A DNA stretch of 64,000 nucleotides from Draconibacterium sediminis (GTDB lineage Bacteria > Bacteroidota > Bacteroidia > Bacteroidales > Prolixibacteraceae). Below, in pieces: positions 26,641 through 44,041 of this stretch. The translations under genes were made by a program, and so were the position numbers. Every line of letters starts with the position of its first letter. Position 1 is the first letter of the stretch. The stretch is from NCBI RefSeq assembly GCF_000949475.1, contig NZ_JRHC01000001.1, positions 2,294,001 through 2,358,000 on the forward strand, in the 5' to 3' direction. Under the pieces are notes generated by a model. That model was not told the origin of the DNA and did no database searches. It saw only the letters and a program-made list of their open reading frames with translations.

Positions 26641-28185
26641 ATGTTTTTCAAAAATCTCTTTTCGCATCCGGCAGAATCGGCGCCGCTTATGGTTTTGTAC
26701 GGCACAAAATCGGGCAACTCAAAAACTGTGGCGGAAGAACTGGCGAAGCAGCTGATCCGGCAAAATATTGAGCACCGGGTGAGCAGCATGTCGAAAGTTA
26801 AACCGCAACAATTAAAAGATGTGGAGCGAGCGTTGCTGGTGGTAAGCACGCACGACGATGGTGAGCCACCGGTAAAAGCAAGGAAGTTTTACAGGCAGTT
26901 ACAGGCAGCTGATATGCCAGGTTTGGAACAACTGCAGTTTGCCGTTTGTGCTTTGGGCGATTCAAGCTACGACAGCTTTTGTGAGGCCGGAAAAACATTG
27001 GAGAGTCGTTTACTGGAGCTGGGCGCAAAAGAAATACTGCCACGAAAAGATTGCGACGAAGAGTTTGCACAGCCGGCAGTGGAGTGGATAAAAGAGGTGC
27101 TGACCCGACTAAAAAAGGGAGAGGAATTGACAGATGAGATCGAATTGGAAAGCTCAAAATGGTACAACGGCACCTTAAAGCAGCGTGAGGTATTATCGGT
27201 AGATGCCGAAAACAATTCCACTTATCACCTGGAATTTGAATGCCCGGAAGCAGCCGGAAATTATAAAAGTGGCGATCTGCTGGATGTAATTCCTGAAAAT
27301 CCTGCAGATCTGGTTCTGGCGCTTTGCGAAAAGTTAGAGGCACCACAACTGGCAGCTGCTTTTGCAACAGAAAAAGAAATTACACGCGTAAATCGGCAAT
27401 TGTTAAAGGCTTATGCCGGAGCGACATTAAATAAATCGCTGGCTGAATTGCTTACTCAAAATGAGGCGTTGAATACCTATCTGAAAAATGCAAATGTACT
27501 TGATCTGCTTAACGATTTTCCGGCAGAAATTTCCGGCGAAAAGCTGCTTTCGTTGTTGCCTCCAATCCGCATCCGGCAGTTTTCGATAAGCAGCGTGCCC
27601 AATGCCGAAACACCAATTGATCTGATGGTAAAAACCGTACGTTTTCAGTTCAACGGTAAAAAACATTTGGGAGCAGCTTCCAGCTGGTTAAACGAAAGTA
27701 GTACGCCGGGAAGTCCAATTCGTTTTCGCCTGGCAGCAAATCCCGATTTTCACATGCCGGCCGATAGTAATACTCCGATACTTATGATCGCCGCCGGAAC
27801 CGGAGTGGCACCATTTCGCGCCTTTGTTCACGAGCTGGAGCAACAGCATTTCCCTGCAAACGCCTGGTTGCTTTGGGGAGAGCAGCTGCATCATCACGAA
27901 AATCGCTACTACTCCGAATTCAGTGCAATAAGTCAACAGCACGGCAACTTTTTGTTCGATGCTGTGGAATCGCGTAATCAGCAAAAACCAATGTATGTGC
28001 AGGATTGGCTACTGGAAAAACACCACGAATTAGCGGCCTTTATCAATCACGGTGCGCATGTTTATGTCTGCGGCTCAAAAGCAATGGGCGAGGGCGTTGA
28101 AAAAGCCCTGCAGCAAATCTTTCCGGATTCCGCAGCCTGGGAAATTTTTAAATCTTCCGGACGGTATCACTGGAGTTGTTATTGA
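26641..28185 (+). CDS. Diflavin reductase (CysJ/cytochrome P450 reductase-like)
   Basis: 514 residues: an FMN flavodoxin domain (1-165; YGTKSGNSKTVAEELA and STHDDGEPP), then an FAD/NADPH ferredoxin-reductase module (210-514; FAD motif RQFSISSVPN, NADPH motifs AAGTGVAPFRAF and VYVCGSKAMGEGV). It ends GRYHWSCY; a terminal aromatic residue stacking on FAD is typical. Electrons would run NADPH, FAD, FMN to an acceptor. It is not accompanied by cysI (sulfite reductase hemoprotein). Instead it starts 2 bp behind the PepSY gene, so the likely acceptor is the heme of that protein or imported ferric iron. That is inference. At 514 residues it is shorter than most CysJ proteins (about 600). Confidence 0.82.
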   Translation: MFFKNLFSHPAESAPLMVLYGTKSGNSKTVAEELAKQLIRQNIEHRVSSMSKVKPQQLKDVERALLVVSTHDDGEPPVKARKFYRQLQAADMPGLEQLQFAVCALGDSSYDSFCEAGKTLESRLLELGAKEILPRKDCDEEFAQPAVEWIKEVLTRLKKGEELTDEIELESSKWYNGTLKQREVLSVDAENNSTYHLEFECPEAAGNYKSGDLLDVIPENPADLVLALCEKLEAPQLAAAFATEKEITRVNRQLLKAYAGATLNKSLAELLTQNEALNTYLKNANVLDLLNDFPAEISGEKLLSLLPPIRIRQFSISSVPNAETPIDLMVKTVRFQFNGKKHLGAASSWLNESSTPGSPIRFRLAANPDFHMPADSNTPILMIAAGTGVAPFRAFVHELEQQHFPANAWLLWGEQLHHHENRYYSEFSAISQQHGNFLFDAVESRNQQKPMYVQDWLLEKHHELAAFINHGAHVYVCGSKAMGEGVEKALQQIFPDSAAWEIFKSSGRYHWSCY

Positions 28186-28230
28186 GTGGAAAGTTGGGAG
28201 TCGGAAGTTGGAAAACCGAAGAGATGGCCA

Positions 28231-28282
28231 ACTCGTAACTTGCAACTTGTGTCTTGCAGCTTCTTTAATCCTTCATCCTCTC
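28231..28282. repeat. Short degenerate heptamer array
   Basis: ACTCGTA/ACTTGCA/ACTTGTG/TCTTGCA-type units at 7-bp spacing, running into TTTAATC/CTTCATC units. First member of the heptamer family that fills gaps from here to 43 kb. The rest of the gap 28186-28425 shows nothing else. Confidence 0.6.
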
Positions 28283-28425
28283 ACTTGGCTTGCCCCAGCT
28301 TAAAGAAATAAATCTTAAAAAGTAGCGGGTAAATCAATCATACACTTTTCTATTAAGCAACTTATAGTTAAATTGCAATACAAGCCCGGATTACAAATCA
28401 ATCCTGCGCTATAAATAGAAAAAGC

Positions 28426-29127
28426 ATGGAATTTATAGATGCACTCAAATATGGAGCTATTGGATTATGCGCTATCCTTTTTGCTCTTTCAACCAAATTG
28501 CTGTTAAAGGAACAAGACCGCAATGATGATGCGCGTCAGCCCATTTTAAACACCATTAAATGGTTTCTGGTTGTCTCCTTGTTAATGGCGGTGTTTTTTG
28601 GTATAACCGAGTTTCTGAAACCGGATAAAACAAATGCGACGCTGGAAAATGCGATAACAAAGGTATGGGAATCTCATTATTCAGAATATACCACTGATAC
28701 AACATTACTGTTAAAAGCACAGCGGGTAAAAGAAGGTGACAACGAATGGGAGGGAACGGCAGATCCGGACAAAGTGTGTGAAGATATTATTTCGGAACTG
28801 GAAATGTGCATGAACGAGCGATCGAGCATTGAATTTGAATTTTACACCTATATTATTCGTTTAAAAAAGGAGATAAATGATAAAGGAGGAACGATAAATG
28901 TTGATTTTAATCCCGACAATAACAAAAAGGACGTTTATGAAATTCTCGAATTCATATTTATAAACCTCGAATTAACCGCTAATCAGAGCTTAAACGACGA
29001 TGAAGTGCGTTCATTGTGGAAACAATACAAACGATCGTGGTCGACTAAAAATTTTAAGTTTATCGATTATTGGGATGTTGCACAATTGGTACGCGAATAC
29101 CTGGATAAGTTTTACCCAAACGAATAG
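28426..29127 (+). CDS. Membrane-anchored protein of unknown function
   Basis: 233 residues. Two N-terminal membrane segments (8-25, AIGLCAILFALSTKLLL; 46-62, FLVVSLLMAVFFGITEF) are followed by a soluble, acidic, helical C-terminal part of about 165 residues (WESHYSEYTTDTTLLL ... LVREYLDKFYPNE). I recognise no domain. It stands alone between two repeat-rich gaps. Composition is like a genuine gene (regular codon use, no low complexity). Confidence 0.65.
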   Translation: MEFIDALKYGAIGLCAILFALSTKLLLKEQDRNDDARQPILNTIKWFLVVSLLMAVFFGITEFLKPDKTNATLENAITKVWESHYSEYTTDTTLLLKAQRVKEGDNEWEGTADPDKVCEDIISELEMCMNERSSIEFEFYTYIIRLKKEINDKGGTINVDFNPDNNKKDVYEILEFIFINLELTANQSLNDDEVRSLWKQYKRSWSTKNFKFIDYWDVAQLVREYLDKFYPNE

Positions 29128-29310
29128 ACTATCTCCCAAAAAAAAATCTTGTTGCTTTTCGATACTAAGAAGTTGAAATGTTTCATTTCTGATATATTAG
29201 GACGAGTTTCACAGTGCCGTTCCCCTTGGGAAGGGCGATTTAGAGGGATTGATCTTTTTACTTCAAAATACTTTGCCATTCATAAATCCTCCGATCCGTC
29301 GGCTGACGCA

Positions 29311-29380
29311 TCTTGTAACTCGCAGCTCCAATTAATCTTTCATCCTTTATCAATCATCCTTTCACTCATCTTGCCACAGT
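29311..29380. repeat. Heptamer array, 10 units
   Basis: Ten consecutive 7-bp units in phase, from TCTTGTA and ACTCGCA through TTCATCC, TTTATCA and ATCATCC to CCACAGT. Degenerate, not identical. Part of the gene-free gap 29128-30103. Confidence 0.6.
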
Positions 29381-29422
29381 AGTTCCTCCCTCGCTATGAC
29401 TTTTTCCCGGGTGAAACTCAGT

Positions 29423-29470
29423 AGCGGACAATGAATTTATTTATCCCGGTACGATTCATTACTGTCCGCT
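29423..29470. repeat. GCAGCGGACA stem-loop repeat, copy 1
   Basis: AGCGGACA (29423-29430) and TGTCCGCT (29463-29470) with a loop holding TCCCGG(T/C)A(C/T)GATT. Four further copies at 34036, 35789, 44505 and 44874 have longer arms (GGCAGCGGACA/TGTCCGCTGCC). Confidence 0.7.
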
Positions 29471-29549
29471 GCCCTTACTTCACTCGGTTTGATGTCATTG
29501 CGATACCGATGAGTAAGCGAATCGGTAGAAGCAATCTCTAGCAGCTAGC

Positions 29550-29626
29550 GACTCGCAGCTCGTAACTCGTAGCTTTCTTTAATCCCTAATCCTTAATCAA
29601 TCATCCTTCCATTCGGCTTGCCACAG
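29550..29626. repeat. Heptamer array, 11 units
   Basis: GACTCGC, AGCTCGT, AACTCGT, AGCTTTC, TTTAATC, CCTAATC, CTTAATC, AATCATC and on to GCCACAG: eleven units in unbroken 7-bp phase while the unit sequence drifts. A GTCATTGCGAT...GAAGCAATCTC repeat lies just before it (about 29500-29540). Confidence 0.6.
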
Positions 29627-29676
29627 TCGTTCCTCCCTCGCAATGACAGTACCGGTTTATATCCCTGTCAGCAAAT

Positions 29677-29857
29677 GCCCAGTGCCCAATGACCAGTGCC
29701 AGTGACCAGTGCCCAGTGACCAATGACTAATGACCAATGACTAGCGACTCGTAGCTCGCGACTCGCAGCTGTCTTTAATCCTTCCTCCTTTTGCCTTTCT
29801 CCTTTTTCCTTGATTCATCCTTCATCCTTTATCAATCATCCTTTCACTCATCTTGCC
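29677..29857. repeat. Long heptamer array, about 26 units
   Basis: GCCCAGT, GCCCAAT and GACCAGT units change stepwise to GACTAGC, GACTCGT and AGCTCGC, then to TTTAATC, CTTCCTC, CATCCTT and TCTTGCC. All are in 7-bp phase with one single-base slip (29698-29703). The unit type changes but the period does not. Non-coding on both strands. Confidence 0.7.
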
Positions 29858-29911
29858 ACAGTCGTTGCTCCCTCGCAATGACAGTTCCGGTTTATACCCC
29901 CGTCAGCAAAT

Positions 29912-30016
29912 GCCCACTGACCAATGCCCAGTGCCCAGTGCCCAATGACCAATGACCAATGACTAGCGACTCGAAGCTCGCAGCTTTCTTTCATCCTTCA
30001 TCCTTCATCAATAATC
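29912..30016. repeat. Heptamer array, 15 units
   Basis: GCCCACT, GACCAAT, GCCCAGT (twice), GCCCAAT, GACCAAT (twice), GACTAGC, GACTCGA, AGCTCGC, AGCTTTC, TTTCATC, CTTCATC (twice), AATAATC: the same order of unit types as in the preceding array, so the two arrays look like diverged copies. Ends about 90 bp before the permease gene. Confidence 0.7.
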
Positions 30017-30103
30017 TTTCATAACCATGTAACCAACAACAACTTCGTGCGTCTTTAAAATATCCGGTCCATTCATCTCCGGAAAACTAAAGCTATTGAA
30101 AAC

Positions 30104-32527
30104 ATGATTAAAAACTTATTGAAACACAGCTTGCGGGCGCTGAAAAAGCAAAAAGGATACGTTGCCATCAACATTCTGGGTTTGGCCATTGGTATTGCCT
30201 GCAGTATTATTATCGCACTCTTTATTATCCACGAGTTAAGTTACGATCAGTACCACGAAAACAAAGACCGTATTTACCGGGTAAACTTAGACGGTAAGAT
30301 TGGCGAACAGGAAGTGAATGCCTCTTATTCGGCATCGATACTGGGGCCAACTATGGCCGATGAATTCCCCGAGGTGGAAAAATTCTGCCGCTTAAATAAC
30401 TGGGGCGAAGCCGTTGTAAAAAGGGAAGATATCGCTTTTGTAATCGACGATTTTGCCGAGGTGGACTCTACCTTTTTCCAGCTGTTCTCCATTCCTTTGC
30501 TTCGGGGCGACAGCAAAACCGTGTTGAATGAACCCCATACCATGGTGCTGTCGGAATCTACCGCTAAAAAGATCTTTGGCAACGAAGATCCGATAAATAA
30601 AATGGTGCGGGTAAACACGGGGCAAGATCCGTACCGCATAACCGGAGTAATGGCCGATTTCCCGGAGGAAACGCATTTAAATGCCAATATCCTCACGTCG
30701 TTTATGACCAACAACAGAGCCGACGATCCCGAATGGATGAACAACAGTTTCTCCACTTATGTGTTGCTAAAACCCAATACCTCGCCCGAGAGTGTGGAGG
30801 CACGTTTCCCGGGATTGATTGAAAAATACGTTGGGCCGCGGGTGCAGGAACTATTGGGAATAATGCTCGAGGATTTTCTGGCGCAGGGCAACCGTTACAA
30901 TTATCACCTGCAGCCATTAACAAAAATACACCTTATGCCCGAGGTCGAGCACGAAGTAAAACCTGCCACCGACCCCAAATACCTGGTTATTTTCAGCAGT
31001 GTGGCTATTCTTATCATCGTTATTGCCTCCATCAATTTTATGAATCTTTCCACCGCACAGGCCACAAAACGCGCCAAAGAAATTGGGGTGAAAAAGGTGA
31101 GCGGATCATCAAAAGGAATGCTTATTCTGCAGTTTCTTACCGATTCAACCTTGATTTCGTTTATTGCACTCATTCTGGCTGTGGCCATTGTTTTTGTGTC
31201 GCTGCCGTTTTTTAACGACGTTTTCGATACGCAGGTGCGGTTCAATATCATCGAACATTTCTACTACATTCCCCTTCTTATACTTTTTGCCTTGTTTGTG
31301 GGTTTTGTGGCAGGTGCTTACCCGGCCTTTTATCTTTCGTCGTTTAATCCCAATACGGTGTTGCGCGGAAAACTTCGCGACGGGGCAAAAAACGGAAAAC
31401 TACGCCGCATCCTGGTGTCGGTACAGTTTCTTATTTCCATTATTCTTATTGTGGGAACCATTATTATGTACCGCCAGCTAACCTACATGGTAAATAAAGA
31501 TGTTGGTTTTGGGAAAGACCGCTTAATGGTTATTCAAAGTGCCGGATCTGTTGGCGACCAGGTAAAAGCCTTTAAACAGGAAATTCTGAAAATACCGGGT
31601 GTGCAGAATGTTTCGGCATCAACGGCTGTTCCGGGGCACAACAATAACAACAACGGTTATATGTTGGAAGGCCACGACGGGCAAACCTACCTGATGCAAA
31701 CCGCTTATGTTGATTACGATTTTCTGGAAACCTACGGCATGGAACTAAACAAAGGCCGCTTTTTCAACCGCGGGTTTGGTGCCGATAACGAAGCTTGTGT
31801 GGTGAATCAGAAAACCATTGATGAGTTTGGTATCGGCGATTACACGCAAACCCGCTTTATTGTTCCGTTTTCCGATGAGGGTGATAAAAAATTTATGCCC
31901 ATTATCGGGGTGTGTAACGATTTCCATTTTAAATCGCTGCACGATCGTATAGGCCCTTATGTAATGCGCTTTAAGGAAGCCGACAATAACTGGGGGTATA
32001 TTTCGGTGAAATTTAATACCGATGCACCGGCCTCGGCCATTAACCAGATTGAAGAAAGCTGGAAACGATTTGCGGCCAACAACCCGATGCGTTACTTTTT
32101 TATGGACGAAGATTTTGCGCACATGTATAAATCCGAAAGGCAAAACGCCAAACTATCGGTGGTATTTGCCATCCTGGGGATTTTTATTGCCGCACTCGGT
32201 TTGTTCGGACTTACCTCGTTTACCGTTGAGCAACGCACCAAGGAAGTGGGTGTACGCAAAGCACTGGGAGCTTCGGGTTACAGTATTTTTTACCTTATTT
32301 CGAAAGAAATCGTTATCCTGGTTTGTGTGTCAACCTTGGTGGCCAGTCCGCTTATTTACTGGGTGGCCAGCAACTGGCTGCATAACTATTATTACCGCAT
32401 CCATCTCGGAGCGCTCGAGTTTATTGTTGGTTTTATTGCCGCCATTTCCATTGCGCTGCTTACCATCAGTTATAAAACACTGCAAACTCTGCGGATTAAC
32501 CCGGCGCATACCTTGAGGTATGAGTAG
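30104..32527 (+). CDS. FtsX-like ABC transporter permease
   Basis: 807 residues with the double MacB_PCD-FtsX architecture common in Bacteroidota: anchor helix (ILGLAIGIACSIIIALFIIH), periplasmic domain (about 45-280, ELSYDQYHENKDRIYRVN start), FtsX core (AILIIVIASINFMNLSTAQA, EIGVKKVSGSS), a second periplasmic domain, and a final FtsX core (FGLTSFTVEQRTKEVGVRKA). Such permeases act with an ABC ATPase in mechanotransmission across the envelope or lipoprotein/antimicrobial export. No ATPase gene is near, so it is an orphan permease. An 8-bp tandem array begins directly after its stop codon. Confidence 0.9.
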   Translation: MIKNLLKHSLRALKKQKGYVAINILGLAIGIACSIIIALFIIHELSYDQYHENKDRIYRVNLDGKIGEQEVNASYSASILGPTMADEFPEVEKFCRLNNWGEAVVKREDIAFVIDDFAEVDSTFFQLFSIPLLRGDSKTVLNEPHTMVLSESTAKKIFGNEDPINKMVRVNTGQDPYRITGVMADFPEETHLNANILTSFMTNNRADDPEWMNNSFSTYVLLKPNTSPESVEARFPGLIEKYVGPRVQELLGIMLEDFLAQGNRYNYHLQPLTKIHLMPEVEHEVKPATDPKYLVIFSSVAILIIVIASINFMNLSTAQATKRAKEIGVKKVSGSSKGMLILQFLTDSTLISFIALILAVAIVFVSLPFFNDVFDTQVRFNIIEHFYYIPLLILFALFVGFVAGAYPAFYLSSFNPNTVLRGKLRDGAKNGKLRRILVSVQFLISIILIVGTIIMYRQLTYMVNKDVGFGKDRLMVIQSAGSVGDQVKAFKQEILKIPGVQNVSASTAVPGHNNNNNGYMLEGHDGQTYLMQTAYVDYDFLETYGMELNKGRFFNRGFGADNEACVVNQKTIDEFGIGDYTQTRFIVPFSDEGDKKFMPIIGVCNDFHFKSLHDRIGPYVMRFKEADNNWGYISVKFNTDAPASAINQIEESWKRFAANNPMRYFFMDEDFAHMYKSERQNAKLSVVFAILGIFIAALGLFGLTSFTVEQRTKEVGVRKALGASGYSIFYLISKEIVILVCVSTLVASPLIYWVASNWLHNYYYRIHLGALEFIVGFIAAISIALLTISYKTLQTLRINPAHTLRYE

Positions 32528-32591
32528 GGATTGAAGGACTGAAGGATTGAGGGATTGAGGGACTGAAGGATTGAAGGACTGGAGGACTGAA
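32528..32591. repeat. Perfectly phased octamer array abutting a stop codon
   Basis: Eight 8-bp units (GGATTGAA, GGACTGAA, GGATTGAG and close variants). The first unit begins at the base after the TAG of the permease gene. Unlike most arrays here the period is 8, not 7. Confidence 0.75.
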
Positions 32592-32827
32592 TGTTGGAAT
32601 GCGTAAATGCGTGAATGATTTAATGCTTTAATGAGCAATAGCATTGTGAAATTGCCTACTGCGATTTTGCCAACTGCCTACTTGTCGCAGATTGATTTTA
32701 AGATTGATGGAGATTGAATGAGATTGAAGGACTGAATATTGGAATGCTTAAATGCGTGAATGATTTAATGCTTTAATGAGCAGTAGCTTTGTAAAATTGC
32801 CCACTGCTATTTTGCCAACTGCCTACT
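32585..32827. repeat. 98-bp direct repeat, two copies (32585-32682 and 32730-32827)
   Basis: Both copies run from GACTGAAT through AATGATTTAATGCTTTAATG to CCAACTGCCTACT, with about ten scattered differences. The 47 bp between them holds AGATTGAT-type units. Confidence 0.7.
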
Positions 32828-32890
32828 ACTTGTAACTTGCAACTTGCAACTTGTAACTTGCAGCTTGCAACTTGTGTCTTGTAACTTGCA
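32828..32890. repeat. Heptamer array ACTTG(T/C)A, 9 units
   Basis: ACTTGTA, ACTTGCA (twice), ACTTGTA, ACTTGCA, GCTTGCA, ACTTGTG, TCTTGTA, ACTTGCA in strict 7-bp phase. A related array at 33660-33735 in the second copy of the same block has different unit order. Confidence 0.75.
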
Positions 32891-32974
32891 TGAGATTGAA
32901 GGAAGCTATTAGCCGCTAGCCTCTGGCTACTAGCTTCTTTCATCCTTAATCGATAATCCTTTGAAATATTTTTT

Positions 32975-33100
32975 TGCACCGTGGCTTTAGCCCGGTGTAT
33001 TTTTGTGAGAACAAGAAAGGCTTTAGCCATTAATATTCTCATTAAAGGCTAAAGCCTGCACGCTATTTTCTCCTATATCACCGCCCTGAAGGACGGTGCA
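32975..33100. repeat. REP-like element with GCACCG termini, copy 1
   Basis: About 126 bp: outer arms TGCACCGT and ACGGTGCA, an inner stem AGGCTTTAGCC/GGCTAAAGCCT, and terminal hairpins CACCG...CGGTG. Copies 2 (33816-33941) and 3 (44286-44412) are nearly identical; a worn copy lies at 48133-48221. The size and hairpin layout recall REP/BIME elements mobilised by REP-associated tyrosine transposases; no such transposase is visible in the window. Confidence 0.75.
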
Positions 33101-33226
33101 AAATTGTTGCCTTCGCCTGAATCCTCTCGCATGGTGTTGGATTGCCACGGTCGTTCCTCCCTCGCGATTGCGACACGATCCATCAGCCGACGGAAGGAGA
33201 AACAATCTAATCTGCCGAAAGTCATT

Positions 33227-33505
33227 CTATCCAAGCGTAAACCATAGAATGGAACCCAGCAGAATTAAAAAAGAATACAGATAAAGTGATCGAAGGTTAA
33301 ATTTTGTTTTTATCCACAACATCAAAGTAGTGATTAGAAGCCCAAACAATCCTGCCAGCATTGGGAGCCAGAGGATCTCGAAAACTATGTCGGAGCCTTT
33401 AATACCCGATAAATCGACACGTGACGTCACCGCCCAGTAAATGACCACTACTACCGATAAAATCAAGATAATTTTGGGAATATTGGACGTATTATTTATC
33501 GCCAT
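33227..33505 (-). CDS. Small membrane protein of unknown function, bracketed by direct repeats
   Basis: 92 residues from ATG 33505 (MAINNTSNIPKIILILSVVV); the open frame continues four codons further to a TTG, which I do not choose. Three membrane segments (10-27, 41-62, 72-90) joined by short loops with a KTKFNLR basic turn. No family recognised. It lies on the minus strand between the two copies of a block of about 300 bp (32.80-33.10 and 33.64-33.94 kb), so it could have entered or could leave by recombination between them. Confidence 0.6.
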   Translation of the reverse strand: MAINNTSNIPKIILILSVVVVIYWAVTSRVDLSGIKGSDIVFEILWLPMLAGLFGLLITTLMLWIKTKFNLRSLYLYSFLILLGSILWFTLG

Positions 33506-33633
33506 TTCGTAATTCAATTATGATTTACACGTCAGATACATCTGCTTTCACGTTATTATCGATTAAAGGTTACAATTATTCGTTGGCCCTTAGGGCGAAA
33601 TAAACAATTCAGCAGCAATCTTACAAGCTGGAA

Positions 33634-33941
33634 TATTGCCAACTGCTATTTTGCCAACTGCCTACTACTTGTACCTTGCAACTACTTTACCTTGCAACTT
33701 GTAACTTGCAACTTGTGTCTTGTAACTTACATGAGATTGAGGGAAGCTATTAGCCGCTAGCCTCTGGCTACTAGCTTCTTTCATCCTTATTCAATATTAC
33801 TTTGAAATACTTTTTTGCACCGTGGCTTTAGCCCGGTGTATTTTTGTGAGAACAAGAAAGGCTTTAGCCATTAATATTCTCATTAAAGGCTAAAGCCTGC
33901 ACGCTATTTTCTCCTATATCACCGCCCTGAAGGACGGTGCA
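33634..33941. repeat. Second copy of the heptamer + REP block
   Basis: Repeats 32797-33100: ATTGCCAACTGCTATTTTGCC wording, heptamer array, GAAGCTATTAGCCGCTAGCC segment, then the REP-like element (33816-33941). The REP part is almost identical between copies, while the heptamer part has diverged by unit changes. Confidence 0.7.
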
Positions 33942-33957
33942 AAAAAATCTGTCAGCA

Positions 33958-34446
33958 CGCGAATCCTTATACGAGGAAAAGATTGCTTCTCCGCCAGCTG
34001 GCGGATCGCAATGACATTGTTTGTTAGTCATGGGCGGCAGCGGACAATGAATGATTTAATCCCGGCACGATTTACCACTGTCCGCTGCCCTGATGCCATA
34101 AACAGCGCCTGTCATTACGAGCGTAGCGAAGTAATCTGTTTAACCACCCCGTCAGCGAAAGGATATTTTTTATTCATGACAGTGTTTAATGTCGCTGCCA
34201 CCCCTCCTGAGAGGAGGGGAAATTATCAAGACAAAGATTTCTCCTCCTTTGAGGAGGAGTACCGCTGATGTAGTGCAACGGAATCAGTGGGGAGGTGGTG
34301 CCTGTGTTACTTCTCCACCAACTCCTAGCTAGAAGCTCGCAGCTGGTTTCTCAACTTTTTCCTTGTTATGTTTTATTTTATGTAAACAAATGTTATTTTA
34401 GTGCCTCATAACCCGGTCACAGAGAGAAGATTCATTGCGTTGATAG
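33958..34446. repeat. Large direct repeat, left copy (489 bp)
   Basis: Runs from CGCGAATCCTTATACGAGG to AGAAGATTCATTGCG. It contains a GCAGCGGACA stem-loop (34036-34089), a CGCTGCCACCCCTCC...GGGGAGGTGGTG element (34194-34300) and a short heptamer segment (near 34317-34345). The right copy lies at 35711-36255. Together they bracket the lipoprotein gene 34672-35640. Apart from the heptamer segment the copies are nearly identical, so the duplication is recent or kept uniform by conversion. Confidence 0.85.
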
Positions 34447-34607
34447 GGCCCCTGGGAAGAAATTGGATTAGCCATTTGTAAACGATTATCCGTCAGCTGG
34501 CGGATTTAAAAACGATTACAAATGGATATATCATTAAGGATAAACACCTTATAAGAAATTTAGAAATTAATGCTATAAGCGATATAAGTGTAATACTCTT
34601 ATATATA

Positions 34608-34615
34608 CGTTATAG
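34608..34615. other. Boundary motif GTTATAGC upstream of the bracketed lipoprotein gene
   Basis: GTTATAGC here and its reverse complement GCTATAAC at 35658-35665 face each other just outside the gene 34672-35640. This is the orientation expected for the ends of an attC-type recombination site at the two sides of a cassette. With only 8 bases it could be chance. Confidence 0.35.
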
Positions 34616-34671
34616 CCAATTTAAAAAAAACACAATAGCAATTTCTAAATATTAACCTATAAAAAGCAAAA

Positions 34672-35640
34672 ATGAGAAAATTAAGTTTCCTTGTTCTATT
34701 AGTCCTTGCATTAGGGTTACAATCTTGTATGCTTACCGCATATATGGTAGCGAAAGAACAACTGGCACTAAATCCAAAAGTATTAAATTGTCTTAAAGAT
34801 GAAAAAGTTGTAATTGCTACAATGGAATATCCCAAAAAAGCATCAGCAGAAGACATAGAAAAAATCGACAGATTAAATGAGTTTACAGTCAACATGTTAA
34901 AAGAGCATTGGACTTATTGTGAGATACACGATGTGATGCCTTTTGAGGAAGCTAAGAAATTTGTTTGGAAAAATCGTGGCTATCATTTGTTGTCTATTAA
35001 TAACACAGGATATAGGATTGTTACTAATGGTCCAATACCTCAAAGAGGTGATGGGGATTATGGTTCAATCGGAATAGAATTGGATTATTTTGTTAGTGCC
35101 ATGAAATCAAAACCTGCAGCCTTTGAGTTTCCATTTACCATGGGCGAAAGTTTTATAAACGAAGTATCAACTTATGCTTCAATAATGGCATTTCAGGATA
35201 TGTTAAAACAAATTGAGACAAAAAAGATACCGAGTCAACAAAGTTTTCCTAAAAATGGGAAAAGAAACACTGATAAAATAAAGAATAAAACATTGCTGAT
35301 TCCAGAATATATGGTTAATAACAAATTGGGAGAAGAAGGGATAAAGAAATATTACAAATATGATTTTGAAATTTGCAGCAAAGAAAAATTTGAAGAAGCC
35401 ATATTAAACGGATTAGAAGGATATGTTTTTCCTCTATATAACACAGTGCCTGCCGGGAAAGCTACATTTAACCAGTTTATGATTTACGACTCAGAAACAT
35501 GGGAGTGTTACCTTGCTCTACGTTTCGCGCAAAATGGTGCATCCAATTACAAAATTTTTGCATCGAAAGATTATCATGATTTCCTGAAAATGAACAAAAA
35601 AACATGGAAAAATATAGCAAAAGGAATGAAATCTGTATAA
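34672..35640 (+). CDS. Lipoprotein of unknown function in a repeat-bracketed insert
   Basis: 322 residues with a type II signal peptide (lipobox LQSC at residues 16-19, MRKLSFLVLLVLALGLQSCM). The mature protein is soluble, rich in Lys and Glu, without a domain I know. Segments such as FVWKNRGYHLLSINNTGYRIV and YVFPLYNTVPAGKATFNQFM suggest a mixed alpha/beta fold. It is more AT-rich than the genes outside the accessory region. It is bracketed by large direct repeats and by GTTATAGC/GCTATAAC, signs of acquisition as a unit. Confidence 0.75.
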   Translation: MRKLSFLVLLVLALGLQSCMLTAYMVAKEQLALNPKVLNCLKDEKVVIATMEYPKKASAEDIEKIDRLNEFTVNMLKEHWTYCEIHDVMPFEEAKKFVWKNRGYHLLSINNTGYRIVTNGPIPQRGDGDYGSIGIELDYFVSAMKSKPAAFEFPFTMGESFINEVSTYASIMAFQDMLKQIETKKIPSQQSFPKNGKRNTDKIKNKTLLIPEYMVNNKLGEEGIKKYYKYDFEICSKEKFEEAILNGLEGYVFPLYNTVPAGKATFNQFMIYDSETWECYLALRFAQNGASNYKIFASKDYHDFLKMNKKTWKNIAKGMKSV

Positions 35641-35710
35641 TATAGTAGAAAAATACTAGCTATAACAAAGTGCAAATTGCATAGCCGGGTTTGGTGGTGC
35701 CCCGCTACCG

Positions 35711-36255
35711 CGCGAATCCTTACACGAGGAAAAGATTGCTTCTCCGCCAGCTGGCGGATCGCAATGACATTGTTTGTTAGTCATGGGCGGCAGCGGACAA
35801 TGAATGATTTAATCCCGGCACGATTTACCACTGTCCGCTGCCCTGATGCCATAAACAGCGCCTGTCAATACGAGCGTAGCGAAGTAATCTGTTTAACCAC
35901 CCCGTCAGCGAAAGGATATTTTTTATTCATGACAGTGTTTAATGTCGCTGCCACCCCTCCTGAGAGGAGGGGAAATTATCAAAACAAAGATTTCTCCTCC
36001 TTTGAGGAGGAGTACCGCTGATGTAGTGCAACGGAATCAGTGGGGAGGTGGTGCCTGTGTTACTTCTCCACCAACTCATAGCTAGCGGCTTGCAACTCGT
36101 AGCTAGAAGCTCGTATCTTTCTTCCACTTTTGCCTTTCTCCTTTTTCCTTTTGTCTTGAAATCTTTTTCCTTGTTATGTTTTATTTTATGTAAACAAATG
36201 TTATTTTAGTGCCTCATAACCCGGTCACAGAGAGAAGATTCATTGCGTTGGATAG
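35711..36255. repeat. Large direct repeat, right copy (545 bp)
   Basis: Same content as 33958-34446, but about 55 bp longer. The extra length lies almost wholly in the heptamer segment (36073-36175: AACTCAT, AGCTAGC, GGCTTGC, AACTCGT, AGCTAGA, AGCTCGT, then T-rich units), which shows that heptamer number changes between otherwise near-identical copies. Confidence 0.85.
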
Positions 36256-36355
36256 ACCCTTATAATTAGCTTTTATGCTAAAATCGCTATCGATTTAAAG
36301 AGATAATGACAACTAATTAATTAGACTTATTAGTAACAATTAAAAGATATTAGAT

Positions 36356-36562
36356 ATGGCAAGATTATTTAAACAAGGAGACGTAGTAAGATTGAAATCT
36401 GGGGGACCTAAAATGACAATTGAGAATTATTACGTACATGTGGGAATTAGTTCATCAAGCGTAAGTGACCATCTTGTAGACTGTACATGGTTTGATAATA
36501 ATGGTGTTCTACAATCTAGAACCTTTGAACAAGATTCTTTAAAGAAAGAAGATGATGAATAA
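36356..36562 (+). CDS. YodC-family (DUF2158) small protein
   Basis: 68 residues. The sequence FKQGDVVRLKSGGPKMTI followed by CTWFDNNGVLQSRTF is the DUF2158/YodC pattern, a small SH3-like beta barrel of unknown function found across bacteria. Its 3' end overlaps the next gene by 11 bp, so the two are translationally coupled. First gene of the one-direction accessory array. Confidence 0.85.
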   Translation: MARLFKQGDVVRLKSGGPKMTIENYYVHVGISSSSVSDHLVDCTWFDNNGVLQSRTFEQDSLKKEDDE

Positions 36563-37055
36563 AAAAGGATACCTATTCATAATTGGGATACTTTTATTCA
36601 TGTTAATCATATGGATTTTTTATCCTTTCATCTTAAATATATTCTTCGAATCAAATAATGACAGAGGAGTCTTCGGTGATTCTTTTGGAGCATTGAATGC
36701 ATTAATTTCAGGTCTAGCGTTTGGAGGGATTATTTATACTATACTTCTTCAACAAGGTCAGCTCAATATGCAAAAGGAGGAATTAATTCTACAACGAAAA
36801 GAGCTTGAATTGACAAGACAAGAATTAAACAGAACTGCAGATGCACAAGAGAAATCAGAAAAAGCATTATCACGACAAGCTGAGAATATGGAACTAACTT
36901 CCAAAATATCAGCTTTAAGTGCATTATTTAATGCATATAATAATTCCTTACATAGAGAATCGGGACTGAATTGGGAAGAAAGAGAAGAAGTTAAGAAAAA
37001 GGCAAAAAAGATTTCAAACAGTTTAGAAGAATATACTCAAAAAGTTATAAAGTAA
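36552..37055 (+). CDS. Membrane protein with coiled coil, unknown function
   Basis: 167 residues (two in-frame ATGs at 36552 and 36555). Two membrane helices (7-29 and 49-66) are separated by NDRGVFGDSFGALNALISG, a motif I know from a widespread family of small membrane proteins often found in accessory and defence-rich regions. A long charged coiled coil follows (68-120, KEELILQRKELELTRQELNR) and a helical tail. Coupled to the YodC gene by overlap. The function is not established; a defence or stress role would be speculation from the family's usual surroundings. Confidence 0.72.
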   Translation: MMNKKGYLFIIGILLFMLIIWIFYPFILNIFFESNNDRGVFGDSFGALNALISGLAFGGIIYTILLQQGQLNMQKEELILQRKELELTRQELNRTADAQEKSEKALSRQAENMELTSKISALSALFNAYNNSLHRESGLNWEEREEVKKKAKKISNSLEEYTQKVIK

Positions 37056-37217
37056 GAGGACGTGACAGGCTTTGTATTATTTGGTGGGATTTGGTGTTAG
37101 ACTTTCTATGGTTTTTCTCGTCTCAGTTCAGTTCTAGAGGACAATGTACTCTGAAATCCGCTTCGCAACCGGCTCAAACCTTTTTACTAAATTTTGATTC
37201 AGAATATAATCTCAGAT

Positions 37218-37427
37218 ATGGAAATTAGAAGATACCGAATTGTTGCAGAACAACTACTCAAAGAAGAAAAGCCGATTTCAATCGAAAAATTGGCTGTTCT
37301 TACCAATATGCCTTTACAGGAAATTGAACAAATACTAAAAGAGTTCAATTCATTGGGATTTCTTGTAAACAAAGATAATTTCAACAGCATTATTCTTACG
37401 GGCAAGGCAAAAACAAAAAACTCATAG
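37218..37427 (+). CDS. Small winged-helix-like protein
   Basis: 69 residues from the ATG at 37218 (MEIRRYRIVAEQLLKEEKPI); an earlier TTG would add eight residues. Pattern of a winged helix: ISIEKLAVLTNMPLQEIEQILKEFNSLGFLV, then a two-strand wing (NKDNFNSIILTGK). It may be DNA-binding. Its stop is 3 bp before the next membrane gene, so the two form a unit; the regulator may act on that unit. Confidence 0.65.
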   Translation: MEIRRYRIVAEQLLKEEKPISIEKLAVLTNMPLQEIEQILKEFNSLGFLVNKDNFNSIILTGKAKTKNS

Positions 37428-37430
37428 ATT

Positions 37431-38051
37431 ATGAAAGATCATACTTACATTATTTCTGGGTTAATTGGTTTTCTATTGACAGGGCTAAGCATACTCTATG
37501 GAAGGTACAAACTGAATCACAAATTAGTTCTTAAAAAGCCGCAATACCTTATTTGGTACTCTTTGTCCTATGGAATATTAGCAGGGATACTTTCATATTT
37601 TATATCAACCGGAAATCTTAAAATAAATGATTTTCAGCCTAGTGAAACACCATACCTTGTTGCAATATGTGTTGGTTTGACTATTAAATCTTTATCTAAA
37701 AGTTCTTTAATGAATTTTCCAATCGGGGACAAGAAAGTACCCATTGGACCGAAACTTGTTTTCGACTACTTAGACGATTTTTTATTGAAACGACTTAATG
37801 ACCATATTGATGAACAATTAGTTGTAGTAATTAAAAGAGTATCAAAAAAACTTAAATCTGGAAATAGAACTTTAAGAGTTCAAGATGAATTAATAAATGA
37901 AGTCACGCCGACAAATTTTACTGTGATTGAGAGGAGTAGCTATATGAAAGAAATTTCCTCTTTGAGAAAACCGTTTGACAAATGCCGGTATTTTGCAGAC
38001 AAGTTTGGGATTTGTAGATTAGAGATGCTTGAAAAGAATCTGGATGAATAA
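37431..38051 (+). CDS. Membrane protein of unknown function
   Basis: 206 residues, starting 3 bp after the winged-helix gene. Two or three membrane segments in the first 90 residues (HTYIISGLIGFLLTGLSILY, LIWYSLSYGILAGILSYF, TPYLVAICVGLTIKSLS), then a soluble basic part with PIGPKLVFDYLDDFLLKRLND. No family recognised. Followed by a GC-rich spacer of the type described at 38061-38100. Confidence 0.65.
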   Translation: MKDHTYIISGLIGFLLTGLSILYGRYKLNHKLVLKKPQYLIWYSLSYGILAGILSYFISTGNLKINDFQPSETPYLVAICVGLTIKSLSKSSLMNFPIGDKKVPIGPKLVFDYLDDFLLKRLNDHIDEQLVVVIKRVSKKLKSGNRTLRVQDELINEVTPTNFTVIERSSYMKEISSLRKPFDKCRYFADKFGICRLEMLEKNLDE

Positions 38052-38060
38052 AAATAAAAA

Positions 38061-38100
38061 CACTAGTTCCGCCACTACCACTCAAACCCCTTCGCGTGGT
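38061..38100. repeat. GC-rich spacer motif, copy 1
   Basis: CACTAGTTCCGCCACTACCA followed by CCCCTTCGCGTGGT, starting ten bases after the stop codon. Related in position, composition and wording to the spacers at 39237, 40163 and 40463. Confidence 0.45.
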
Positions 38101-38149
38101 TAAGAGATAATCAGTGCCGACTAAATAAAAATCAAAAACTCAAACCAAA

Positions 38150-39232
38150 ATGGCTGATAAGAAACTTTACAATTTAAGGCAAATTCAAATTTGGTGTGTT
38201 CTTGGATCACCATTTGTTGCCGGGATTCTTATTTCTCAGAATTACTCCAAATTTGGAGAAGGAAGAAAAAGCACACTTTGGATTTTTATTGGAACACTAT
38301 GGACGCTGGCATTATTTGGAATTGCAATGTTAATGCCCGATGGAACTACCAGAAGTGCAGGAATGCTTATTCCTTTACTAAATGGAGCGCTTATCCATCC
38401 AATTGTTGATCGGCTTCAGGGAGAAAGAATAAGAACCCACTTTGAGAATGATGGATGTAAAAGTTCAAATGGATTACCCATTGTATTATCCTTAATTCTT
38501 ATGGCATTAATACTAACGCCAACCATACTTCTCGACCGTATTTCAAATACAAATAACTATTTACGTGCTGATTTTAATGGTAATGGCGTTCTCTATTCGC
38601 ACAATACATCCGTTGAAGAAGTTGATAAACTTGGAAATATCTTGACCAGAGTTGAATATTTTAGTCCCGAAAACCCGGTCGAAGTAGTTTTTGAGGATTG
38701 CGATTCGGTGATTGAACTAAAACTGGTATCTGATAAAGACTATTTTAATAATTCGGAGTTTTTAAATGAGATACAATCCGTTTTTAAACATGTAAGTTTA
38801 TATGATTTTTCAAAACCAGTTGGATTCAATTTAATTGATAAATACCTTAAAAAGGAAAAAAGAATTCATCTTAGTCAAAGCGATAGTATTCAATACCTAA
38901 TGGAGTCGGTTCCTTTTGTCGATAACGAAAATTTCAGACTTTACTATGATATTATGATTCCTGAACCTGAAAGAGCAAAATTTCAGGATTTAATTCTACA
39001 ATTAGATAATCTTTTCCCGCATCAGTATCAATATAGTTTCATCTGTGAAGTTGCTGACAATTCATTCCTGCTTAATCTTTATATTCCGAAAACGGAGTGG
39101 AATAATCCAAAACTTATTTCAGAGGCAAAATTGCTTAAAACTGAATTAAACCAGGCGGACTTTAGCAAACCATTTAGAGTTAAATTATTTGAAAACTCTG
39201 AAACTAATTATGAAGAATTTGAAATTCAATAA
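38150..39232 (+). CDS. Membrane protein of unknown function
   Basis: 360 residues. Four hydrophobic segments in the first 135 residues (IWCVLGSPFVAGILI, LWIFIGTLWTLALFGIAML, GMLIPLLNGALIHPIV, PIVLSLILMALILTPTIL), then a soluble C-terminal domain of about 220 residues, probably extracytoplasmic, with repeated DFSKPVGFNL and DFSKPFRVKL phrases that point to an internal duplication (about 225-245 and 340-355). No family recognised. Confidence 0.65.
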   Translation: MADKKLYNLRQIQIWCVLGSPFVAGILISQNYSKFGEGRKSTLWIFIGTLWTLALFGIAMLMPDGTTRSAGMLIPLLNGALIHPIVDRLQGERIRTHFENDGCKSSNGLPIVLSLILMALILTPTILLDRISNTNNYLRADFNGNGVLYSHNTSVEEVDKLGNILTRVEYFSPENPVEVVFEDCDSVIELKLVSDKDYFNNSEFLNEIQSVFKHVSLYDFSKPVGFNLIDKYLKKEKRIHLSQSDSIQYLMESVPFVDNENFRLYYDIMIPEPERAKFQDLILQLDNLFPHQYQYSFICEVADNSFLLNLYIPKTEWNNPKLISEAKLLKTELNQADFSKPFRVKLFENSETNYEEFEIQ

Positions 39233-39236
39233 AAAA

Positions 39237-39270
39237 CACCGCTGCACCGCTACACCTCCGCTGGCGCGAA
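39237..39270. repeat. GC-rich spacer motif, copy 2
   Basis: CACCGCTGCACCGCTACACC followed by TCCGCTGGCGCGAA, beginning five bases after the stop codon. The remainder of the gap up to 39340 is AT-rich leader. Confidence 0.5.
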
Positions 39271-39340
39271 TTTGTAAACCATACTACTAAATATAAACCA
39301 ATAACATTCAATAACAACACTACTAATTTAAACTTACAAA

Positions 39341-39520
39341 ATGAAAACAAACATTACTATTTACATCGTAAGCCTTGTAATACTGATGGCAGGAATAATT
39401 TTAACTGTTGAGAATCCCGATTCAGGAAGAATGCAAATGATAGCCGGAGGGGTAACCTTTTTAGGACTTACACTGAATATCTTGGGTTTTACGTTGCGCA
39501 TCAGGCAAAAAAGAAATTGA
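39341..39520 (+). CDS. Small two-helix membrane protein
   Basis: 59 residues: helix 1 (5-23, ITIYIVSLVILMAGIILTV), short polar loop NPDSGRMQ, helix 2 (34-52, IAGGVTFLGLTLNILGFTL), basic end RIRQKRN. Clear ATG with an A-rich leader, and a stop 26 bp before the RDD gene. Looks like a real small protein, possibly an RDD-gene partner; function unknown. Confidence 0.6.
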   Translation: MKTNITIYIVSLVILMAGIILTVENPDSGRMQMIAGGVTFLGLTLNILGFTLRIRQKRN

Positions 39521-39546
39521 ACAAACGCTAACCGATAAACAAAACC

Positions 39547-40158
39547 ATGACCAGAGAAGAACGTCTTAAATTCTGCAAAATTTGCGAGAACAAACGAATG
39601 AGCTTGCAAGAGGGGCTTATTTGCATGATCAGCGGCAAAGTTGCCGATTTTGAAGAAAGCTGCCCACACTTTAAAGAAGATGCACGTGCCAAACAGGAAA
39701 TAGCCTCCCGCGACGAATATAACGTTTTGATAAAAGACTCTGCCGATACCGGCAAACGTTTTGCCAACCATATCCTGGATCGGATTTTTGCCTTTATCTT
39801 CATGTTGGTAGTATTTTTTACACTGGGAGTTGTAACAGAAATAGTAAGGCCGGGAGCTATAGACAGTATTGTCGACAATACCTTTTTGCTATACTGCATG
39901 GTTTTTCTGATCTATTACCTGTATTTTGTAATTTCTGAAGCTAGCACGGGCCGCACATTGGGCAAATTAATTACCGGCACAAAAGTAGTTACCATCGATG
40001 GAGAACAACCCGGTTTTGCTACCATTTTACTGCGGTCCATTTGCCGCTTTATTCCCTTCGAGGCTTTTTCATTCCTCACCGAATCGCAAACCGGCTGGCA
40101 CGACCGCTTATCAAAAACCCGTGTGATTGTGGTAAAAAAACAAAAAATTAAAACATAA
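39547..40158 (+). CDS. RDD-family membrane protein with N-terminal Cys-rich segment
   Basis: 203 residues. The N-terminal 45 residues carry four cysteines (KFCKICENK, LICMISG, ESCPHF), arranged like a small metal-binding motif. From residue 75 the RDD domain follows: NHILDRIFAFIFM (with Arg and Asp), two further helices, and GRTLGKLITGTKVVTIDGEQ, the family signature. RDD proteins are membrane proteins linked to Na+/H+ antiport in a few cases; function here unknown. Confidence 0.8.
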   Translation: MTREERLKFCKICENKRMSLQEGLICMISGKVADFEESCPHFKEDARAKQEIASRDEYNVLIKDSADTGKRFANHILDRIFAFIFMLVVFFTLGVVTEIVRPGAIDSIVDNTFLLYCMVFLIYYLYFVISEASTGRTLGKLITGTKVVTIDGEQPGFATILLRSICRFIPFEAFSFLTESQTGWHDRLSKTRVIVVKKQKIKT

Positions 40159-40162
40159 ATAC

Positions 40163-40204
40163 CACCGCTACCGCACCCCCGAAACTTCGGGGCATCGAGC
40201 AGTG
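40163..40204. repeat. GC-rich spacer motif, copy 3
   Basis: CACCGCTACCGCACCCCCGA followed by AACTTCGGGGCATCG. CCCCGAAACTTCGGGG is a palindromic hairpin. Starts four bases after the stop codon. Confidence 0.55.
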
Positions 40205-40238
40205 TTAATAAAAACCACTAATAACTAAATCAAATAAG

Positions 40239-40451
40239 ATGACCGACAAACAAGTAACAAAAGTAATTGGATTCATTTATTCTATCGGAGCAGTAATGGT
40301 GCTTGTGGGCGCATTTTTCAGACTTCAACATTATCCATACGGATTATCACTGTTGTTCCTGGGATTCATGTTTGGTGCAGTAAGCAGTGCTTTTGATATC
40401 TCCAGGTTAAAGAAGAAAATAAAACGATTGGAAAAACAACTACATCAATAA
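40239..40451 (+). CDS. Small GldL-like membrane protein
   Basis: 70 residues. VTKVIGFIYSIGAVMVLVGA and FRLQHYPYGLSLLFLGFMFG resemble the two N-terminal helices of GldL, the inner-membrane motor protein of type IX secretion, but the long cytoplasmic part is missing; a short coiled tail RLKKKIKRLEKQL ends it. It may be a GldL-derived orphan helix pair. Homology is suggested, function not. Confidence 0.65.
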   Translation: MTDKQVTKVIGFIYSIGAVMVLVGAFFRLQHYPYGLSLLFLGFMFGAVSSAFDISRLKKKIKRLEKQLHQ

Positions 40452-40462
40452 CTGGAGTAAAA

Positions 40463-40502
40463 CACCGCTGCCGCGCCCCCGAAACTTCGGCGCATCGCAT
40501 GG
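40463..40502. repeat. GC-rich spacer motif, copy 4
   Basis: CACCGCTGCCGCGCCCCCGA followed by AACTTCGGCGCATCGCATGG; closest to copy 3, sharing the CCCCCGAAACTTCGG hairpin and the GCATCG end. Confidence 0.55.
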
Positions 40503-40563
40503 TTTTTGCTCCGTCGATGCAGAATTGTAATTCACACGAATAAATAAACCCAAAAAGAAAATC

Positions 40564-40710
40564 ATGGAAGTACTAATTCCCGTACTCGTTATTGTAATCT
40601 CTGTTTTAGTTTTACGTGCTGTTGGCTCCTGGATGCTGCGGATAAATGATGTAATTGATCTGCAGAAAGAGATTTTGCAGGAGTTAAAAAAGATGAATAG
40701 TCCGAAGTAG
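40564..40710 (+). CDS. Very small single-helix membrane protein
   Basis: 48 residues: one helix (4-20, LIPVLVIVISVLVLRAV) and a charged helical tail (NDVIDLQKEILQELKKMN). ATG at 40564, TAG at 40708-40710. Same orientation and spacing style as the neighbours. Unknown; short length makes it less certain. Confidence 0.5.
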   Translation: MEVLIPVLVIVISVLVLRAVGSWMLRINDVIDLQKEILQELKKMNSPK

Positions 40711-40984
40711 GGTAGCAATTCGCTGCCCCGATTGAAACACCGGGACACCTCCTTTTGCAAAAGAAGGACGAGTCATAATCCCGTAGGGATTTGATTTTAG
40801 TAAGCCCGGATGAATGATCCGTCGGCAGACGGAGCGAGAAATCCGGGGGTAAAAGATAAACAGGTAAAGGCGCATCAGCCAAAGCCAATCAGGGCGGGGA
40901 AGATCTATGCGCCGCAATTAGCAAAGTTAAATCACCACCCCGTCAGCGAAAGCATATGAATCATCAAAGTTAAAATCTCACATC

Positions 40985-41035
40985 GCTGCCACCCCTCCTG
41001 GCAGGAGGGGAAATTAAATCAGAGGGGAGGTGGTG
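40985..41035. repeat. CCACCCCTCC/GGGGAGGTGG element, short copy
   Basis: CGCTGCCACCCCTCCTGGCA ... GAGGGGAGGTGGTG; longer relatives at 34194-34300, 35947-36053 and 44678-44816 contain an extra internal hairpin (CTCCTCC/GGAGGAG) and ACCGCTGATGTAGTGCAACG. The rest of the gap 40711-41167 shows no gene; it includes ATCCGTCGGCAGACGGA-like wording near 40819. Confidence 0.6.
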
Positions 41036-41167
41036 TTTTATTTTATCACCTCAATCGACCATAGTTCAAAACAGGATTTGCAAAAGCCCACAATTTACCA
41101 TAACTTGTATACTTATTAACCAAATACTATAAAACGTAACCTTTTTAATAACTAAAACCCACAAATT

Positions 41168-41659: not shown

Positions 41660-41790
41660 TTCATTCTTTATATAACAGGATTATTTATTTTTAAGGGAGC
41701 ATCCATTGTGGTGTTCCCTTTTCTTTTGCTCAAAAACAAAAGATACGGAGTAGCTAACACCCTTTTTGTGCAACAAAAGTACTGTTACTA

Positions 41791-42718: not shown

Positions 42719-42769
42719 TATTCCCGGGTATGTGAGCGGGGCGGTTGTTAATTTTTTCGGTAGATCAGA

Positions 42770-44040: not shown

Positions 44041-44041
44041 A

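Follow-up and report, generated by a model that had tools for sequence, protein, structure and literature searches.

How does a row of 7-bp units change its sequence along the array and stay in register? The question is raised by the non-coding region at 29311-30016 of the window, the 64,000-nucleotide stretch of Draconibacterium sediminis DNA analysed here. The initial annotation likened the region to the short tandemly repeated heptamers of filamentous cyanobacteria (STRR) and suggested a special mechanism that preserves phase in 7-nt steps.

Layout of the heptamer stretches

Four heptamer stretches were analysed by autocorrelation, with 300 dinucleotide-preserving shuffles per stretch as the null. 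Lag-7 identity reached 0.44, 0.51, 0.63 and 0.74 in stretches 1 to 4, respectively, exceeding shuffled sequence in each (z scores in Table 1), although stretch 1 taken alone is a weak signal. This excess bears out the description of the stretches as consecutive 7-bp units. Lag-14 identity was likewise raised (z 1.8, 2.9, 9.2 and 7.3), as was lag-21 identity in stretches 3 and 4 (z 5.7 and 4.6); besides 7 and 14, no further lag within 3-20 gave z > 2.5 in any of the four.

The stretches are flanked on the 5' side by a 233-aa ORF without a Pfam family, which ends at 29127, and on the 3' side by a MacB/FtsX-type permease, which starts at 30104. The ORF listing contains no ORF of at least 80 aa between these two positions; the arrays are non-coding, as annotated, and their position rules them out as coding sequence. 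An assembly artefact is an unlikely source of the arrays, since the relative G009 carries an orthologous array of another length in the same place.

The change of words is best followed in stretch 4, which opens with the units TGCCCAC TGACCAA TGCCCAG TGCCCAG TGCCCAA TGACCAA TGACCAA TGACTAG and continues with CGACTCG AAGCTCG CAGCTTT CTTTCAT CCTTCAT CCTTCAT CAATAAT. In-phase word drift is therefore real, and with units passing through several word families along the array, the region is rightly distinguished from a simple microsatellite. The wording "strictly phased" overstates the case a little: the units do drift in phase, but extra, partly doubtful lag switches occur. The one-base slip reported for stretch 3 was recovered as a switch to lag 6 near 29699; a second, doubtful switch lies in the same stretch, and stretches 1 and 2 have one each. 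The succession of dialects said to be common to two arrays was also found, 29699-29790 matching 29914-30005 at 79% over 92 nt.

Table 1. Repeat features of the window and arrays of the period-42 class.
Feature	Position	Strand	Remarks
Heptamer stretch 1 (weakest)	29311-29380	+	CTCGCAG-type to CATCCTT-type words; lag-7 z 2.7
Heptamer stretch 2	29550-29626	+	AGCTCGT/AACTCGT to ATCCTTA; lag-7 z 4.8
Heptamer stretch 3	29676-29857	+	~26 units, four dialects, one clear single-base slip; lag-7 z 11.6
Heptamer stretch 4	29911-30016	+	dialect succession as in stretch 3; lag-7 z 10.5; G009 ortholog 14 + 7 bp shorter
Composite block, 122 nt, three tandem copies	29332-29935	+	starts 29332, 29579 and 29814; spacing 247 and 235
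REP-like element, copy 1	29373-29400	+	GCCACAGT.GTTCCTCCCTCGC.ATGAC; 2 mismatches
REP-like element, copy 2	29620-29647	+	genome motif search
REP-like element, copy 3	29855-29882	+	1 mismatch
Segment with a long palindrome, between stretches 1 and 2	29395-29520	+	AGCGGACAATGAAT...ATTCATTACTGTCCGCT; fold z -4.9
Period-8 array	32528-32591	+	GGACTGAA/GGATTGAG; lag scan
Heptamer array ACTTGCA/ACTTGTA	32813-32888	+	lag scan
Heptamer array ACTTGTA/CCTTGCA	33667-33728	+	paralogous to the 32813-32888 array; lag scan
Heptamer array AATGACC	42818-42944	+	18 units; G009 ortholog ~5 units
Period-8 array	44038-44114		lag scan
Period-42-class arrays	41790-42052 (window); L048:7404-7690; L055:14515-14647; L178:8519-8805; L153:3617-3758; L172:4994-5208		

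Composite block and REP-like element

A 122-nt composite block comprises the terminal part of a heptamer stretch, the REP-like element GCCACAGTCGTTCCTCCCTCGCAATGAC and the DNA following that element; its outer copies are 61% and 88% similar to the middle one. Duplication of this block is the simplest account of the dialect order shared by stretches 3 and 4. In PMC3733652, CGTC-tagged REP elements are described as short, palindromic and intergenic, and as occurring in Bacteroidetes too, without a dedicated transposase. The GTCATTGCGAGG-type element of the window is similarly short, palindromic and intergenic, and may be of this kind.

That heptamers and a REP-like element occur together in one tandem block speaks for an alternative in which small mobile elements (REP-like units moved by Y1/HUH transposases) carry the arrays along, the heptamers being passengers or remnants. 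The element has six genome-wide matches with at most 3 mismatches, five of them inside the window within 19 kb (29373-48123), which fits such mobility, but copies clustered locally are also what duplication would give. An GTCATTGCGAG-type element stood beside the array in one (L030) of 22 loci viewed by eye, with about 350 bases inspected for each. Across the 37 species of the genus, 35 of which have Y1_Tnp by profile search, the number of heptamer-word hits is correlated with that of Y1_Tnp genes (rho 0.50, p 0.0017), and the correlation persists in the 31 species that are at least 90% complete (rho 0.48, p 0.0065). As Y1_Tnp is one of two families examined and neither value takes account of relatedness, the correlation is a lead only. 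In G005, the eight listed of its 11 Y1_Tnp genes do not adjoin its listed arrays, the nearest being about 4 kb away. Overall, we regard carriage by mobile elements as unlikely.

The palindromic stretch between stretches 1 and 2 folds far better than its shuffles (Table 1). Three heptamer arrays folded on both strands (six folds) did no better than shuffles, with z from -0.5 to +2.7, and there is no Rfam match at the gathering threshold within 28000-45000. RNA structure was rejected for the arrays on these two grounds.

Arrays across the genome and the genus

Three further heptamer arrays and two period-8 arrays of the window (Table 1) had been missed in the initial annotation. Outside the window, evenly spaced samples of contig C1 totalling 400 kb yielded no intergenic lag-7 array at the detection threshold; word searches nonetheless find heptamer words elsewhere in the window's genome, in which heptamer arrays are sparse. 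The 400-kb samples of G005 and G008 held seven intergenic lag-7 arrays each, and those of G034 and G024 one each. Over the 2 Mb sampled from five species, intergenic arrays numbered 16 at lag 7, 6 at lag 14, 4 at lag 8, 3 at lag 21 and 11 at lag 42, with two each at lags 10, 13, 16 and 41 and one each at lags 4, 20, 24 and 47. Lags 5, 6, 9, 11 and 12 gave none in these samples, and neither did shuffled sequence. An indel-tolerant scan, which included coding DNA and is less sharp, returned 6, 14, 30, 19 and 10 for lags 5 to 9.

The search of related genomes for the same units that had been suggested was positive: 29 of the 37 congeneric species carry one or both of two word families, the range being from none to many hits. 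The word GACYARYGACYARYGAC is present in 21/37 species, the window's included, with 131 hits, compared with 13/37 species and 37 hits for its backwards control, some of which are themselves heptamer arrays (e.g., L025). In other families of the order, the word occurs in 2 of 24 genomes and the control in none of them. The word GATRYTGGATRYTGGAT was found in 25/37 species of the genus and its control in 0/37. Phylum-wide, GACYARTGACYARTGACYART occurs in 14 of 395 genomes (window's included) and is not special outside the genus, because its backwards control matched more of them (23/395).

Two side observations concern the form of the arrays. Period-8 arrays drift in phase like the heptamers (GGATTGAA, AAATTGTC and similar), also at L143:19165-19235 and L178:8289-8342. 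In G008, L132:3155-3765 keeps a near-continuous heptamer phase over about 610 bp with many dialects and a higher-order repeat of about 160 bp.

A second class of intergenic arrays has a period of 42 (41, 21) bp and a sequence that differs from array to array (Table 1). Several of its units hold a hairpin, with z from +0.6 to -5.7 against mononucleotide shuffles (17 arrays, one of period 47), and 8 of its 11 regions lie between convergent genes, compared with 85 of 650 gaps (p 7e-6). The literature search gave no description of this class; its arrays may be terminators or protein-binding arrays.

Length change between relatives and paralogs

Unit gain and loss was assessed between the window's genome (G000) and G009, which is colinear with the window region, 11 of the 14 matched ORFs being 90-99% identical. 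The G009 ortholog of stretch 4, also located before the permease, is shorter by 14 and 7 bp (net 21). A second array pair has gaps of 14 and 7 bp one way and 7 and 21 bp the other, with a net difference of 21 bp in its well-aligned part and further gaps of 2, 16, 8, 6, 1, 2 and 13 bp in its poorly aligned right-hand part. Gaps of 18 and 7 bp (net 25) separate a third pair, and the 42818 array differs by a net 86 bp, with 18 units in G000 and about 5 in G009.

Multiples of 7 account for 7 of the 15 internal gaps of three array pairs (p 0.0027) and for 7/19 when the 42818 pair, which has four gaps, is included (p 0.013). Across all gaps of all alignments the count is 8/39 (p 0.18), which adds 20 gaps from a G000/G009 alignment running over non-equivalent blocks. 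Paralogs within G000 show a length difference of 2 bp between the arrays at 32.8 and 33.7 kb, and one tract exceeds its 56-bp counterparts by 39 bp. The comparison thus gave a mixed outcome: changes of 7, 14 and 21 bp do occur, but other differences are not multiples of 7, including the net values of 25 and 86 bp between orthologs and 39 and 2 bp between paralogs. Since multiples-of-7 gaps coexist with other gap sizes, unit-step change is likely but is not the only kind of change.

Drift, phase and the question of a special mechanism

The decay of similarity along the arrays was quantified in 27 arrays, including those of the window. At distances of one to eight units, unit identity was 0.708, 0.646, 0.565, 0.522, 0.494, 0.463, 0.433 and 0.397. 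A simulation with one-unit gain or loss and 0.6 substitutions per slip, read with the same detector, gave 0.767, 0.632, 0.557, 0.508, 0.471, 0.448, 0.432 and 0.416 (rmse 0.025; the best among the 23 settings reported). Mixed or longer slip sizes fitted worse (rmse at least 0.064; 0.048 in a run without the detector). Lag-7 mismatches in 24 sampled arrays comprised 230 transitions and 214 transversions and covered all base pairs (A/G 119, C/T 111, A/T 89, G/T 53, A/C 36, C/G 36). Given the simulation fit and this spread mismatch spectrum, the drift requires no more than ordinary slippage and ordinary mutation. In the 42818 array, multi-unit block structure was not significant (p 0.12).

Phase breaks were first counted as 3 per 804 mismatches in the genus and 3 per 1393 in cyanobacterial loci, which looked like a strong deficit; outside the arrays, the baseline between G000 and G009 is 11 indels to 230 substitutions in 3,567 aligned intergenic bases. 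The first detector recovered 11 of 160 and 106 of 688 planted single-base indels. The indel-tolerant scan recovered 35/120 and 213/516 and reported 17 and 121 excursions. With only 7-41% of planted single-base indels recovered, phase breaks are not demonstrably rarer than expected, and unusual phase-keeping was dropped as an explanation. The special phase-keeping 7-nt mechanism put forward in the initial annotation is thereby not upheld: a comparable profile arises from one-unit slippage plus point mutation, and the rarity of breaks is not demonstrable.

A related proposal is dedicated templated addition, in which a reverse transcriptase or specialised polymerase would add one heptamer after another and make errors in doing so. 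Long in-phase chains of changing heptamers, the longest spanning some 610 bp in G008 and containing 3 phase excursions, and the preference for period 7 in the ungapped scan would suit such an enzyme. Reverse transcriptase genes do not follow the arrays: RVT_1 is found in 19 of 37 species, has no match at E 1e-5 in either G000 or G009, and its count shows no relation to heptamer-word hits over the 37 species (rho 0.17, p 0.31; Mann-Whitney p 0.65), nor to summed word hits in the 31 species at least 90% complete (rho 0.09, p 0.62). The tracking gene that the initial annotation had proposed looking for therefore did not emerge among reverse transcriptases. The spread of mismatches over all base pairs and the sufficiency of the slippage simulation also count against templated addition, which we consider very improbable. 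Mutagenesis of the diversity-generating retroelement type is not supported, with no RVT_1 match in G000 (E 1e-5) and no adenine-specific changes.

Gene context

Gene context was examined for 30 sampled arrays of period 7, 8, 10, 14 or 16, of which 25 could be placed between two ORFs, giving 19 regions (11 from G005; one shorter than 100 bp). The ORF calls have a minimum of 100 aa and miss short genes. Ten regions are co-directional, eight convergent and one divergent, compared with 410, 85 and 155, respectively, of the 650 sampled gaps that measure 100 bp or more. Convergent gaps are thus favoured (8/19 against 85/650, p 0.0014), and divergent gaps hold 1/19 array regions against 155/650 (p 0.057). 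Such a distribution is more in keeping with DNA that is tolerated at a distance from promoters than with a signal at start codons.

It bears directly on the reading of the arrays as regulatory sites, for instance bound by protein as RNA or DNA near start codons, a role argued for the TAACTGA repeats of a Beggiatoaceae genome in PMC4679880. Two window arrays do end 88 and 122 bp before plus-strand genes (30104 and 43066). The preference for convergent gaps with a single divergent region, the variation of unit number between close species, and the lack of both RNA structure beyond shuffles and Rfam matches in the folds and interval described above all point the other way, and a regulatory role seems quite unlikely.

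Relation to known heptamer repeats

Heptamer repeats as such are known. As cited in PMC4679880, a 2007 survey found that heptamers outnumbered the other classes of long simple repeats in most genomes surveyed. The work on long simple sequence repeats (LSSR; Mrazek et al. 2007), as cited there and in PMC4692102, reported intergenic tandem heptamers as over-represented relative to other unit lengths and proposed slippage of the polymerase, possibly involving a contact of 7 nt. LSSR, as cited, have tandem units of 5-11 nt in many copies, as do the window arrays, which differ by their strong unit drift and larger duplicated blocks. PMC4692102, which deals with GGGAATC and GGGGA(C/T)T arrays, refers to the 2007 work for the over-representation of heptameric repeats and states that detailed literature on them was lacking.

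PMC4679880 (2015) describes TAACTGA arrays, interspersed with other heptamers, in marine Beggiatoaceae, 15 Cyanobacteria and 5 Bacteroidetes. Two Cyanothece strains differ there mostly by 7-nt increments, and in the BOGUAY Beggiatoaceae genome most TAACTGA repeats lie just before start codons. The arrays studied here are alike in being heptamer arrays, Bacteroidetes included, but the window units listed for stretches 3 and 4 and for the 42818 array differ from TAACTGA, and the sampled arrays occupy mostly convergent or co-directional gaps (18/19) rather than start-codon-proximal positions as described for BOGUAY. The remark that such arrays are not described for this group thus fails for heptamer arrays in general, given the five Bacteroidetes of that paper, and stands for multi-dialect drift, of which we found no description. 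In the open-licence literature, with subscription papers mostly outside the search, long in-phase multi-dialect drift with composite blocks is not described for this group, which does not prove these two features new; the kind itself is already known.

The likeness to cyanobacterial STRR extends to the 7-bp step, the intergenic site, the drifting degenerate words and the GAC(C/T)A(A/G)T family, whereas the host is a member of the Bacteroidota, with gene content including a TonB receptor and DUF4374, and not a cyanobacterium. The word family is indeed common in cyanobacteria, which supports the comparison made in the initial annotation: the 24-nt word GACYARTGACYARTGACYARTGAC occurs in at least 118 stretches of named genomes, and 104 of those listed have cyanobacterial titles. 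The other 14 listed comprise Mucilaginibacter (2), Bacteroidetes (3), Prolixibacteraceae (1), Planctomycetes (2), Gemmatimonadota (2) and single stretches from Victivallales, Verrucomicrobiales, Nitrospinae and Marinobacterium.

For comparison, 80 of the at least 118 loci were analysed, 72 of them cyanobacterial, a set picked for the word and so biased. The 72 cyanobacterial loci contain 157 lag-7 arrays in 545 kb, which are more homogeneous than those of the genus (one-unit identity 0.85 against 0.71). Words are partly shared with cyanobacteria beyond the permutation null at the word level (0.286 against 0.168 +/- 0.037); at the array level, sharing is 10/21 against 5.5 +/- 2.0 (null maximum 12), and 12 against 10.5 in a looser set.

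Other features of the cyanobacterial arrays were seen in passing. Within heptamers, positions separated by two carry the same base less frequently than column permutation gives (0.200 against 0.276, z -5.4; 54 de-duplicated arrays from cyanobacterial loci among L191-L270), and the genus arrays weakly show the same trend (0.211 against 0.234, z -1.6; 25 arrays). At L197:7410, L204:506, L206:5348 and L208:4998, arrays seem by eye to flip in phase to reverse-complement words (e.g., TTTGTCA-type to TGACCAA-type), an apparent flip that would give long imperfect hairpins.

Similar words, GAC(C/T)A(A/G)T among them, recur in Cyanobacteria, Bacteroidota, Planctomycetes, Gemmatimonadota, Verrucomicrobiales and further groups, which might reflect a replication or repair property common to unrelated phyla that favours 7-bp steps and certain heptamers. 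Such a property is unlikely, and the larger number of genomes matched by the backwards control in the phylum-wide search (23/395 against 14/395) tells against its recurring-word part. If the property were real, the genus would let its genetic basis be mapped, the number of Y1/HUH transposases being the sole lead.

Proposed origin and implications

Taken together, the arrays are probably near-neutral satellite DNA of the long simple-sequence-repeat kind, produced by slippage of 7-bp units, mutation and block copying. A heptamer array would first appear by chance, and whole 7-bp units would then be gained or lost through slipped-strand mispairing or unequal exchange. Point mutations would alter single units, and local duplication of the altered units would let the word drift with the register mostly kept. 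Larger blocks, each an array with a REP-like element, would be duplicated in tandem and pass the dialect order between arrays, and the array DNA would be tolerated where little is disturbed, chiefly between convergent genes.

This account rests on observed ortholog differences, some of 7, 14 or 21 bp, on block duplication, on the decay of similarity and on the gene-context bias. Slippage at replication would be the motor, and the arrays would be close to neutral. Slippage leaves the step size of 7 unpredicted, and the sampled arrays favour lag 7 in the ungapped scan. The words shared with cyanobacteria count against slippage as the whole story, as slippage alone does not predict them.

Drifting phased heptamers need no exotic enzyme, and slippage with mutation is thus a useful null model for similar finds. 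The genus offers related species with many or no hits, together with orthologs of unequal length, in which the rates and causes of array change are measurable.
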